Shown piece by piece: positions 14,914 to 19,121 of a stretch of DNA of 64,000 nt. The DNA lies in NCBI GenBank assembly GCA_902780525.1, contig CACZFL010000001.1, positions 186,001 through 250,000 on the forward strand, read 5' to 3'. Position 1 is the stretch's first letter. Each line of letters begins with the position of its first letter. A program made the translations under genes and the position numbers. Origin of the DNA: an uncultured bacterium. GTDB lineage: Bacteria; Cyanobacteriota; Vampirovibrionia; Gastranaerophilales; Gastranaerophilaceae. The notes beneath the pieces were generated by a model that worked only from the letters and a program-made list of their open reading frames with translations, ran no database searches and was not told where the DNA came from.

Positions 14914-14935
14914 ATAATAATTATCGGGATGTAGC
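14914..14935 (+). repeat. Upstream copy of the 22-bp tRNA-Pro leader/5' end repeat
   Basis: Twenty-two bases identical to 15065-15086 (AT-rich leader plus the first 11 nt of the tRNA, CGGGATGTAGC). Looser similarity extends about ten bases further upstream of both. This copy is not followed by the rest of a tRNA. Confidence 0.85.
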
Positions 14936-15050
14936 AAGGACTCCCCGAGGAAGCTGACTAAATGTCAGGTTCTGAGTAGGGCAGGCGAATGGAGAACCGT
15001 AAGGTTCGATGGAGCCGAATGATAGATTTAACCAAGCTGCGCTCGTAAAA
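14925..15050 (+). ncRNA. Possible structured RNA upstream of tRNA-Pro
   Basis: This non-coding stretch is noticeably less AT-rich than its flanks and contains several hairpins: CTGAC-TAAAT-GTCAG (near 14956-14970), GAACC-GTAA-GGTTC with a GNRA tetraloop (near 14993-15006), and GGAGCC opposite GGACTCC. It starts with a copy of the tRNA 5' end and finishes with ACCAAGCTGCGCT, the reverse complement of the tRNA D-arm at 15084-15096. I do not recognise an RNA family. It could be a remnant of an intron or insertion, or a regulatory RNA acting on the tRNA. Confidence 0.35.
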
Positions 15051-15064
15051 ATTGAAAATTAAAT

Positions 15065-15086
15065 ATAATAATTATCGGGATGTAGC
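15065..15086 (+). repeat. Second copy of the tRNA-Pro leader repeat
   Basis: Identical to 14914-14935. The last 11 bases are the true 5' end of tRNA-Pro. Confidence 0.85.
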
Positions 15087-15149
15087 GCAGCTTGGTAGCG
15101 CACCGTGTTCGGGTCGCGGGGGTCGCAAGTTCGAATCTTGTCATCCCGA
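15076..15149 (+). tRNA. tRNA-Pro (anticodon CGG)
   Basis: A full cloverleaf can be drawn. The acceptor stem CGGGATG pairs with CATCCCG and has discriminator A; the C1-G72 pair is typical of bacterial tRNA-Pro. The D-arm is GCGC...GCGC with the AGCTTGGTA loop. The anticodon stem CCGTG/CGCGG holds loop TTCGGGT, so the anticodon is CGG, reading CCG. The T-arm is GCAAG-TTCGAAT-CTTGT. CCA is not encoded, and a T-rich run follows. The 3' 17 bases are duplicated at 18962-18978. Confidence 0.95.
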
Positions 15150-15150
15150 T
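15134..15150 (+). repeat. attL-like repeat (tRNA-Pro 3' end)
   Basis: AATCTTGTCATCCCGAT, a perfect 17-bp match to 18962-18978. It covers the 3' side of the T-stem and acceptor stem of tRNA-Pro, the usual target of tyrosine-recombinase elements. T-rich DNA follows both copies. Confidence 0.8.
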
Positions 15151-15534
15151 ATTTTTTGCAAAAATCGGTTTCCAAGTTATACTTCTTCAGGACAGTTGAT
15201 TATTCGGTTGAAATGATTATTTTTGCCTAAATTCGCTGTGTGTAAAGGGTTTAGCGGTTGGAAGTTTCATACAAATAATCGTATCTAAAGTCCTAAAAGT
15301 CCAAATTTTTGTATTTTTTGTCCTAATTTTGTCCACACAAGGGTTTTAGCCATATTGCACCCTTCCGGCATCATCTTTCACATGATATGATTTTTCGTTG
15401 GGTGAGTGAATAAAAAATTTCATTGTTTTTTAAGTTCAAATTTTCTTGGTCGGAAATTTTTTGCAAAAGGTCGGAAGTTAAAATTTATTTTTCGTTATCA
15501 ATAAAAAATGCGTTTAATACGTCTGCATTTTGTT
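15151..15534. other. Non-coding left end of the tRNA-Pro island
   Basis: 384 bases without a credible gene. The stretch is AT-rich, with repeated short words such as ATTTTTTGCAAAA (just after the tRNA and again near 15459) and GGTCGGAA. No integrase, no -35/-10 pair with a downstream gene and no CRISPR-like array are seen. Confidence 0.6.
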
Positions 15535-16620
15535 TTATATCCTATCACTATATGGCAACGAGTTGATGTAATCTTCCATAAACTGCCAGTCTGGAATGTA
15601 ACCTTTGTCAGAATAGGTGCGGTTATCATCAATAACAGGATTTCCGTTACTATCCCTCTTAATAGGCAGCTTCAATAAAGTATCTTTAATCAAGTCCATT
15701 CTGTATGCTCTACCGTAGCAATATCTAATTCCTTCTTGTGCAAATAAGGTTCTAAAGAAAAGACCTCTCTTTAGATTTAACCAATCAGCACGTAAAACTA
15801 CCATGTGGTCGCCAGCTATAAACCGTTCATTCTGATAAAACACAGTGGCTGTTGTATCACCAATGGTTATACAATTGGCTTCTTCCAGTCCTTCATATCT
15901 TGTATCTTTATCAACAGTAATATCAACACCGTTATTACAATCTGTTCTGGATACAAAGTGAATACCTTTATCAACTTCAACAACTTCTTCTTTTGTATGT
16001 GCTTTAGCTTTATATATCTTATTAAACAAATCCGATACTTTGAATTCTTCCCAGTTGTCTACATCTAAATCTTTAACATTCCCAGCCTTAACTTTAGTTG
16101 TGATAGGTTTATGGTGTAATGACTTGATATAATCTTCCATAAATTGCCAGTCTGGAATATAACCTTCATCAGAGTATGTCCTATTTTCATCTATGAATGG
16201 AGCTCCATCAACATTGTACTTAATTGGTAGTTTAATAACTTCTTCTTCCAGCTTACTTTTAATTCTTGCTCTCCCATAGCTATATTTATAATCTTCCTTG
16301 TTCAAGATGGTTGAAATAAACATATAATGATAGAAATTGATATTATTGTTTCTTAATGTGTAAACTTTATTACCTGTTGCAAAGTCTTTAGGTTGATAAA
16401 AGCTATATATCCCTTCTGCACCAACAGTTAAGCAATTTCCTTCAGTAATTGCTGATTTATCAACTGCAACATAGCCATCACAACCATTATTCTCTGCTGT
16501 TCTTGAAATAAAAGGGATATCCCCATCTTCTAATACATCTTTGATTGATAGTATAGTAGTATTGCAATCAAAGATTCTACCAACAATAAATTCTTGCCAA
16601 TCTTGTACTTTTAATTCCAT
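15535..16620 (-). CDS. Restriction-modification specificity (S) subunit, BcgI-B-like
   Basis: A 361-aa DNA-specificity subunit built from two tandem target-recognition units. Each half runs from a W-x-E-F/W-Q-E-F start (residues 9 and 189 regions) through an SRT.NNG.. strand, a YGRA.. segment and a closing block LPIK, then NRTYSD-x-GYIPDWQFMEDYI, repeated almost identically at about 133-167 and 323-355. Two recognition domains bind the two halves of a bipartite site. It starts 2 bp after the methyltransferase/nuclease gene and forms a two-gene operon with it. About 340-360 aa with a paired fused A subunit matches the type IIB BcgI system rather than classical type I. Confidence 0.85.
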   Translation of the reverse strand: MELKVQDWQEFIVGRIFDCNTTILSIKDVLEDGDIPFISRTAENNGCDGYVAVDKSAITEGNCLTVGAEGIYSFYQPKDFATGNKVYTLRNNNINFYHYMFISTILNKEDYKYSYGRARIKSKLEEEVIKLPIKYNVDGAPFIDENRTYSDEGYIPDWQFMEDYIKSLHHKPITTKVKAGNVKDLDVDNWEEFKVSDLFNKIYKAKAHTKEEVVEVDKGIHFVSRTDCNNGVDITVDKDTRYEGLEEANCITIGDTTATVFYQNERFIAGDHMVVLRADWLNLKRGLFFRTLFAQEGIRYCYGRAYRMDLIKDTLLKLPIKRDSNGNPVIDDNRTYSDKGYIPDWQFMEDYINSLPYSDRI

Positions 16621-16622
16621 GT

Positions 16623-18575
16623 TTATGCACCACCATTGTTTTCATAAACATTACCTTTTTTAATAAGATACGATAGGTAATTATTAAGTGTACGCTGAAA
16701 ATCATCTGTTGTTAGTTTAGTATAATCAGTTTTCATATATGCTTCGCATAACCATTCATCATCAGCATTAACTCTTTCTACTGCTGACTTTCCATCAACA
16801 ACAGCTTTTCTTTCAAACAAGTCAAGCCATTCCGTTTCAATCTCTTTCCACTTTGATATAGTAAAGTTTCCTTTATCGTCTTTAACAAACTGTTCTACAC
16901 GTCCTAAATTCTTCTTCTTAACAAATCCATCATCTTTACAGTAACCAAAAAATGTGCTTCTGGTCGTTCCATCTGGTTTAACATGAGGTTGACCAAGAGT
17001 GAATAACATACAACAAGCACAAACAGAAGAACCCGGATAGAACATTTCTCCCGGTAACGAGAATACGGCTTCTAATGTATTATCTTCAAGTAATACTTCT
17101 TTCTCTTTTGTAATAAGGCTACCAGTACCGATTGCACATGCCAGAGGTAACAATACAGCCAGTTTAACAAGCTTAGGTTGTTCCCCTTTTCTTACACGTT
17201 CAGCATTAAGTTCCTTAATAACATCAGAGAAGTAGTGAACAAATACAAGTCCTTTCGTTGGGTCTTCTTTACCATCTTTTGCACTTCCCCATTCTGTCTT
17301 ATAAGAATTAGGAATGTTTTTAGGCTTTGCGTTATATGGTGGGTTCATCAGAATAATATTAGGGTCTGCTTGTTTAATGAACTCTTTATGCTCAAAGCAA
17401 CTGCCCAGTTTAATGTTAGAGTTTCCATCACCATGTATTAACATATTGGTTACAGATAAACCAAAGGCTTTTTCTTCAACTTCAATACCATAGATATTAT
17501 TCTCTTTAACTTTCTGTTGAAGCGTCTTAGTTTGTGCTTTTGTTCTGCCATTTCTACAATCAGCTAATTCTTTAACCATAGCTTGCACCAAGAAGGAAGC
17601 ACTGCCACATGTACCATCTAGCACAATCTTTGTGCAATCCACTTCCGTTAATCTGCACATAAATTCTGTGATGTGGTCTGGTGTAAAGGCTTGGTTCTTA
17701 TCCTTCTTGCCTGTATACTTATTGAAAGCAATAAAGAATAGGTTAAGAATATCTTGACCTTCATCACTATCGGTATCAATATATTTATAGATATCCATTA
17801 AGATACTATCTATAATTTCAACCCAGTCTTTCTTCTTTAATGCTCTAACTTTCTGGTCATCTAATACATTCTTTTGTAACAATTGTATTTTCTTATTCTT
17901 ATTATCAGAACCATCAAGCAATTCTGTTAATGTGTTTTCAATACCAGCTATAATTTCTTTCTCAGATTTTAATTCAAACGAGTTATTAACTTGCTTCTTA
18001 AGTTCTTCATCAATTCTTGTTGCACCAAGTTTCTTTATCAAGTCTTTAATGTGAAGTAACACTGTACCAACAAATTGACTTCTCAAGTCTTCATCAATGT
18101 CTTTCTTATGCAACAGTTCATTCAGAGCATAAGTGTTTTTCAATACTCTTTCTCTATCATTTTGTTTATTTAGAGAGAACAATGATTTGTAGTATTCCAT
18201 TGTCTCCAACACTGTTTCATCTTTTAAAAAATGACTATCATCAATAAAGGATTTCCATACCTTTATCTTATCATTTTTAGTATTAGCCAGAATACATATA
18301 ATCTTCTTATCAGAGTGTAACACTCTTTCTTCTTCAAGATACTCTTTCAACTGTTCAATATCAGCTTCTACAAAGTTCTGTTTAGTTTCAACCAATACAA
18401 CAAAGTCTTCATCTTCAAATCTTATATCTAACTTGAAATGTTTTAATTCACGTCCTAAACATTGTTCAAGTTTAGCTTTAGAACCAGCTTCAACAACATA
18501 ACTGTATTCTCCAGCTTCTATATTGGAAGTAAGGTAACTACTACCAATTCTTTCAACCATATCATGTCTTTGCAT
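16623..18575 (-). CDS. Fused nuclease/N6-adenine methyltransferase, BcgI-A-like
   Basis: A 650-aa protein. The N-terminus carries a PD-(D/E)xK-type nuclease signature, Asp50 followed 13 residues later by E63-T-K65 (FVVLVETKQNF). A helical region leads to an N6-adenine methyltransferase with SAM motif LDGTCGSASFLV (about 319-330) and catalytic NPPY (411-414). Fusion of cleavage and methylation in one chain, together with a two-TRD S subunit and no HsdR, resembles the type IIB BcgI family, which cuts both sides of its site. The start ATG 18575 has GAGGTGAG upstream. The gene lies inside the tRNA-Pro-bounded island, so horizontal acquisition is likely. Confidence 0.85.
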   Translation of the reverse strand: MQRHDMVERIGSSYLTSNIEAGEYSYVVEAGSKAKLEQCLGRELKHFKLDIRFEDEDFVVLVETKQNFVEADIEQLKEYLEEERVLHSDKKIICILANTKNDKIKVWKSFIDDSHFLKDETVLETMEYYKSLFSLNKQNDRERVLKNTYALNELLHKKDIDEDLRSQFVGTVLLHIKDLIKKLGATRIDEELKKQVNNSFELKSEKEIIAGIENTLTELLDGSDNKNKKIQLLQKNVLDDQKVRALKKKDWVEIIDSILMDIYKYIDTDSDEGQDILNLFFIAFNKYTGKKDKNQAFTPDHITEFMCRLTEVDCTKIVLDGTCGSASFLVQAMVKELADCRNGRTKAQTKTLQQKVKENNIYGIEVEEKAFGLSVTNMLIHGDGNSNIKLGSCFEHKEFIKQADPNIILMNPPYNAKPKNIPNSYKTEWGSAKDGKEDPTKGLVFVHYFSDVIKELNAERVRKGEQPKLVKLAVLLPLACAIGTGSLITKEKEVLLEDNTLEAVFSLPGEMFYPGSSVCACCMLFTLGQPHVKPDGTTRSTFFGYCKDDGFVKKKNLGRVEQFVKDDKGNFTISKWKEIETEWLDLFERKAVVDGKSAVERVNADDEWLCEAYMKTDYTKLTTDDFQRTLNNYLSYLIKKGNVYENNGGA

Positions 18576-18961
18576 ATCTCACCTCATTTTAATTGTAAAG
18601 AAATATTAAGAATGACACATCGTATGCTTAAATGAAATCGATTTATCTCTCCCAAAAAGTTGGTAGGGTGGGTAAAGCTACATTTTGCTTGAAGTTTAGA
18701 CGAAAATTACTGAGTGCGTACCCACCAAATATTTAGTGGTGGAAATGTGCGTTCAATCATTTTAAAATACATCATTTTTAGCATTTTCCACCCTACATAA
18801 TTCTCAAAATCCCTGTTCTTTCTTCTCAAACTGACAGTTGTTTTACACAAGTCGAACTTCCGTTCGTGTCTTGTCTCGTCGCATTAAACGTGTCTGCGGA
18901 TTTTGCTTCAAAGAACTTTCGTTCTTTTTGCAAAATTCCTTCGCACTCTGCTCCTCACCGC
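18576..18961. other. Non-coding right end of the island
   Basis: 386 bases with no credible gene. Two perfect small hairpins stand out: an ACAAG/CTTGT plus CGAAC-TTCC-GTTCG stem at 18847-18874, and AAAGAAC-TTTC-GTTCTTT at 18910-18927 followed by T and G. The second looks terminator-like on the plus strand. No integrase gene or fragment is recognisable. Confidence 0.55.
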
Positions 18962-18978
18962 AATCTTGTCATCCCGAT
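18962..18978 (+). repeat. attR-like repeat
   Basis: A perfect 17-bp copy of the tRNA-Pro 3' end, followed by a T-run, 3.8 kb from the intact tRNA. It marks the distal border of the restriction-modification island. Confidence 0.8.
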
Positions 18979-19121
18979 TTTTTTTATAATAAAAAAGGTT
19001 GTAGGTTGTAGTTGTAGGTTGGGTGAAACCCAACAATAATGAGGCAAATTAATACTTTTCATATTAAAATTTATCAAACTCACCGTTCTTGTTTCTCAAA
19101 CAGACTGTTATTTTACAATTT

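Follow-up and report, generated by a model that had tools for sequence, protein, structure and literature searches.

A restriction-modification cassette beside a tRNA-Pro gene in an uncultured Gastranaerophilales bacterium is very probably a non-autonomous, tRNA-homing transposon of the TniA/TnsB superfamily

Tn7-like transposons (PMC8649781), among them the type I-B2 and I-D CASTs (PMC10293859, PMC11406308), pair a TnsB/TniA-type transposase with an AAA ATPase. A 5-bp target duplication is typical of Tn7-type DDE transposases, and Tn7 relatives combine it with controlled orientation (PMC11406308). CyCAST has been shown to insert some 30 nt beyond a tRNA gene (PMC10293859), and restriction-modification (R-M) systems are the commonest defence cargo of Tn7-like transposons (PMC8649781). 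The family described here resembles them in all these respects: its autonomous relatives encode both proteins, and its members duplicate 5 bp, keep a fixed orientation, insert a few tens of bp past tRNA genes and can carry R-M genes. It differs in that several different tRNA genes are used, many small cargo units occur per genome, and no CRISPR system was seen in its autonomous representative L285; the unit studied here, moreover, has no transposition genes. The MuA/MuB module of phage Mu is likewise similar, with Mu-type matches in PHROGs, a 5-bp duplication and unequal numbers of binding sites at the two ends, but the family has no phage genes and its insertion is oriented and strongly tRNA-directed. 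MITEs, mobile insertion cassettes and TIMEs (PMC4133298, PMC5444012) are, like our unit, transposase-free and enclose unrelated cargo between ends that belong to an autonomous transposon, whereas our unit has asymmetric TniA-family ends and homes to a tRNA gene, and TIMEs derive from Tn3. The literature searched, which included few subscription papers, holds no description of such mini-elements in Gastranaerophilales nor of non-autonomous Tn7-like units, so that their novelty is provisional.

The locus lies in a 64,000-nucleotide stretch of genome G000 (the window). An intact tRNA-Pro(CGG) gene, called by ARAGORN and Rfam, occupies 15075-15150 of the plus strand; genes for Hsp20 and a PHP-domain protein lie upstream of it and an iron-type alcohol dehydrogenase gene lies downstream. 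Its last 17 bases, AATCTTGTCATCCCGAT (15134-15150), are repeated exactly at 18962-18978, also on the plus strand, and between the two copies there are two minus-strand genes, an R-M operon, and non-coding ends, with nothing else. The initial annotation had described both the perfect repeat and this gene content correctly. It had also named many unrelated copies of the 17-mer as grounds for doubt; these are absent, as the 2,087,335 bases (35 contigs) of the genome hold the two copies and no third. That such 3'-end repeats are not due to chance follows from a sample of 116 tRNA loci of the lineage, partly biased because some loci were picked by similarity to the tRNA-Pro region, in which 12 nt of the tRNA's own 3' end recur exactly within the next 500 bp at 19 loci, and at none in a reversed control.

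An exact 17-mer on each side of an operon next to a tRNA gene, in a genome with tyrosine recombinases elsewhere, invites the reading proposed initially, namely an island that a tyrosine recombinase integrated at the 3' end of tRNA-Pro, the 17-mers being attL and attR and the integrase either lost or acting in trans. The integrase search that had been suggested for the wider genome did find tyrosine recombinases, but none adjoins the tRNA-Pro gene, and none lies between the 17-mers. The closest relative, G017, decides the matter for the R-M unit. It has the same gene order, with proteins 87-94% identical, and no R-M genes; there, the tRNA gene is followed by a non-coding stretch of about 150 bp that ends in the second 17-mer, 137 bp past the tRNA. 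The empty site, expected to have a single 17-mer, therefore has two, and both predate the insertion. Joining window positions 15075-15177 to 18853-19000 reproduces the G017 stretch with a single CAAGT, a comparison that rests on one clear empty site among relatives that are all metagenome assemblies. We conclude that the R-M DNA entered a unit which already bore the second 17-mer, and that the mobile unit is not bounded by the 17-mers. Perfect copies of a tRNA tail on both sides of a defence operon are easily taken for attachment sites, which they are not here; an origin by tyrosine recombination is refuted for the R-M unit and we regard it as vanishingly improbable.

The exact absence in G017 places the mobile unit at 15178-18847 (3,670 bp). 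It is flanked by two copies of CAAGT (15173-15177 and 18848-18852), which is present once in the empty site, and its termini match those of a repeat family. This 5-bp target duplication, sitting exactly at conserved family termini, is typical of TniA-TniB and other Tn7-like elements and stands against tyrosine recombination. The older non-coding element that was split, which we call a T-unit, is left as two plus-strand remnants, 15151-15177 on the left and 18853-18978 on the right; the latter holds the hairpin core together with the copied 3' end of the tRNA, and the joined flanks align to G017. The second 17-mer thus closes an older T-unit. Taken together, 15178-18847 is very probably a tRNA-homing transposon of the TniA/TnsB (Tn7/Mu) superfamily, non-autonomous and mobilised in trans, with an R-M operon as its cargo.

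The two ends of the unit are asymmetric. The long left end (15178-15508, plus strand) begins with TATACTTCTTCAGGACAGTTG, of which 18 of 21 bases agree with the left termini of TniA elements, and further GGTYGGAA repeats lie within it at about 15254, 15448 and 15469. A stretch in another genome (G007:C47) is 76% identical to it and begins at the same base. In the window's own genome, a 71% copy (C1:9624-9923) lies about 300 bp past tRNA-Asn in the same orientation, adjoining MarR-like and EmrB-like genes (named by eye), and no right end was found near it. The short right end (18797-18847, plus strand) has two iterated TTCTCAAA-type sites, terminates in TTTTACA and matches the family profile (nhmmer, 9.8e-13). 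A second right end (19067-19117, plus strand; nhmmer, 4.5e-11) lies just beyond the second 17-mer without a left end; it is not at that place in G017 and is probably the relic of an earlier insertion at tRNA-Pro. A recurring motif at 15488-15526 was considered as a transposon end and rejected, as it resembles the 3' end of a small coding gene (by eye). A promoter and terminator scan gave nothing above shuffled sequences.

The right-end repeat, the last 50 bp or so of the unit, has a sharp boundary at TTTTACA and is found again in numerous genomes of the genus. Scanned for exact matches, GTDB genomes gave 56 loci, in entries titled Gastranaerophilales, cyanobacterium, misnamed Acinetobacter or rumen and gut bins, and outside a motif of about 48 bp the sequence on both sides varies from locus to locus. 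The ends opposite to these right ends read TACCTTTTAACAGGACATTTGGTCGGAAG; in the cassette itself, the common right end is paired with a left end of TATA type. Patterns for the two ends, run over eleven genomes, matched 48 and 100 times; read backwards, they matched nowhere. Forty left/right pairs lie 0.2-3.4 kb apart, and perfect 5-bp duplications flank 12 of them, compared to 0.57 for swapped flanks, with a small bias because, among several possible right ends, one with a matching flank was preferred. These duplications peak at zero offset. No perfect duplication flanks the other 28 pairs, which is what one would expect with many of them old, nested or mispaired. At four loci (L284, L197, L187 and L286), several family ends follow one another downstream of a single tRNA, as though units had accumulated there in tandem.

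The 12 perfectly duplicated units span 0.9-2.9 kb and no transposase domain was detected in them; their cargo includes HigBA, an XRE regulator, LemA with a TPM-domain protein, a nitrilase-type hydrolase, an AsnC regulator and unknown proteins. These data point to a family of small units in uncultured rumen Gastranaerophilales that carry a single gene or a few as cargo, among them R-M and HigBA toxin-antitoxin systems, with ends in common with tRNA-homing TniA transposons. Such units would distribute single systems among tRNA sites, much as gene cassettes do, but via DDE transposition.

Insertion of the family is directed to tRNA genes in one orientation. The window unit begins 28 nt past tRNA-Pro. 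Among left ends retrieved by pattern alone, 13 of 29 have a tRNA gene within 300 bp upstream, where about 1% per left end would be expected if some 50 tRNA genes are assumed in 1.6 Mb. All 17 left ends with a reachable upstream tRNA lie on the same strand as that tRNA, which makes 15 distinct tRNAs, and none has a reachable downstream tRNA. A second type of left end, TATAGGTTTTCAGGACAGTT, shows the same behavior: a tRNA lies within 300 bp upstream in 12 of 18 cases (at 26-204 bp), always on the same strand, and a tniA gene begins 212-448 bp inside, also in 12 of 18. The initial view of a tRNA-linked island thus holds, with a transposon family that prefers tRNA genes in place of an integrase.

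An autonomous member of the family was found in a related genome (L285, on G023:C34). This element of 14,165 bp has TACC and TTTTACA ends and a GGAAG duplication, and its left end lies 327 bp past tRNA-Lys. Its transposase has Mu-transpos_C and rve domains and matches TnsB in the PDB; it also encodes a TniB ATPase and two proteins without known domains, and the transposase and ATPase group with phage (Mu-type) transposition proteins in PHROGs. The cargo is of R-M type and more, with two C5 methyltransferases, an HNH protein and an XRE/ImmA-type pair. The right end of the window unit is as in L285, and the unit contains neither the DDE transposase (TnsB/TniA) gene nor the AAA ATPase (TnsC/TniB) gene that L285 has. 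Since these transposition genes are absent, we class the unit as a derivative and not as a full Tn7-like member. Another locus, L244, was dropped as an autonomous element, as its left and right ends have no matching duplication.

Which transposase would act on the cassette is a separate matter. The window's own genome has five Mu-transpos_C genes. One of its TniA elements lies 204 bp past tRNA-Lys and has a left terminus that shares 17 of 20 bases with that of the cassette (for the closest terminus type, 18 of 21 are shared); its right end was not found via its 5-bp flank, nor were right ends found for the genome's TniA elements in general. The own-genome transposases compared are just 45-50% identical to that of L285, so that any tie of the cassette to one particular transposase is tentative. 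We count these points against our reading, together with the pairing of end types in the cassette and its lack of a transposase. In the proposed mechanism, TniA encoded elsewhere would bind the iterated sites in the long left and short right ends, and TniB would link the bound ends to the target. The unit would then insert a few tens of bp past a tRNA gene with its left end facing the tRNA, and a 5-bp stagger would produce the target duplication; here, the insertion would have split the older T-unit, the source of the 17-mer repeat. The initial annotation is borne out in that the cassette is small and mobile and has no recombinase gene inside, and mobilization in trans is likely. With autonomous and non-autonomous versions both in hand, trans-mobilization and tRNA targeting are directly testable.

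The same autonomous relatives with R-M cargo could suggest a different history, in which a larger TniA element inserted at tRNA-Pro and then lost its transposase genes in place, so that the present form never moved. Two results speak against it: small units that have perfect duplications and no transposase occur commonly in the genus (the 12 pairs above), and no tniA or tniB remnant was found in the non-coding ends of the unit. We consider such decay in place rather unlikely, and favor the reading of a unit that moves as a non-autonomous transposon. In three other TniA elements (L228, L248 and L249), a small tyrosine-recombinase-like gene of about 175-180 aa, which may encode a resolvase, lies close to tniA, and L249 also has a probable reverse transcriptase gene (by eye).

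The cargo appears to be a complete two-gene R-M operon of type IIG-like organization, and its activity is predicted from sequence. The larger gene (16623-18575, minus strand) encodes a 650-aa subunit with an N6-methyltransferase domain (N6_Mtase, PF02384, 3.4e-24), for which the best PADLOC model is type IIG (3.7e-43). The smaller gene (15535-16620, minus strand) encodes a 361-aa specificity subunit with two target-recognition stretches, both matched by Methylase_S (PF01420, 4.3e-21), and it contains an internal 116-nt DNA repeat. An N6-methyltransferase subunit with a separate S subunit and no separate HsdR is the layout of type IIG/IIB (BcgI-like) systems; the likeness is qualified by the nuclease motif, as an N-terminal PD-(D/E)XK-like motif, LDIRFEDEDFVVLVETKQ, was read by eye in the 650-aa subunit whereas the domain search reported no nuclease domain.

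The methyltransferase has full-length homologues on plasmids of Ligilactobacillus (52% identity) and Macrococcoides (48%), the latter plasmid having the same M and S pair. No close R-M homologue was found among 57 relatives, the best match outside the own genome being partial and 41% identical. The operon was thus likely acquired from outside the genus, as judged from these comparisons. The R-M system might itself be held responsible for the insertion, either by cleavage-linked insertion with target duplication or by IS-linked movement, both R-M-associated target duplications and IS-linked R-M movement being documented (PMC3031569), and the similarity of the ends would then be incidental. However, the bases at both borders are the termini of a multi-copy family with other cargo, and we regard an R-M-specific entry as exceedingly improbable compared to transposition by family ends.

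No TniQ or TnsD protein was detected by PF06527 in 32 genomes, a search in which control genomes also gave none. The third protein of L285, considered as a TniQ candidate, matched no known domain or PDB entry. The single-sequence model of its homologue in L205 has a mean pLDDT of 45. One could imagine that TniA-TniB elements find many tRNA genes without a TniQ-type protein by reading the non-coding units beside tRNA genes, or RNAs made from them, so that tRNA-mimicking units and not a known protein selector or CRISPR RNA would direct targeting; we consider this very improbable.

These units are of two types. T-units, which are rich in hairpins, start like a T-arm, continue with a conserved hairpin core and close with a copy of the 3' end of the tRNA, and they follow other tRNAs too, among them Lys, Ser, Gln, Asn, Ile and Leu (for example at loci L056, L231, L155 and L143). 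D-units precede tRNA genes for Pro, Lys, Val, Glu and Leu, in the window's own genome on contigs C2, C4, C7 and C14 (L080, L081, L082, L084 and L087). They open with a duplicate of the 5' end of the tRNA, share a common core with TGACTAAATGTCA, and have a 3' part complementary to the 5' end of the tRNA. The D-unit of the window (14914-15064, plus strand), recognized by a 22-nt exact repeat and by relatives, comprises the tRNA 5'-end copy and a structured non-coding core and lies outside the transposon. In a swap test, the 3' part of D-units paired best with the 5' end of their own tRNA in 17 of 24 cases; T-units showed no clear preference for their own tRNA 3' end. No Rfam family was matched by the D- and T-units tested, and D-units are a candidate for an unrecognized structured RNA or DNA element. 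Before tRNA-Leu(CAG) on C14, at least three D-units stand in tandem at a spacing of 137 bp. In another genome (L047, G007), a second tRNA-Pro-like copy lies past tRNA-Pro, with its D-loop and T-loop both interrupted by such non-coding units, and a small two-gene cassette between direct repeats of about 50 bp adjoins this interrupted copy.
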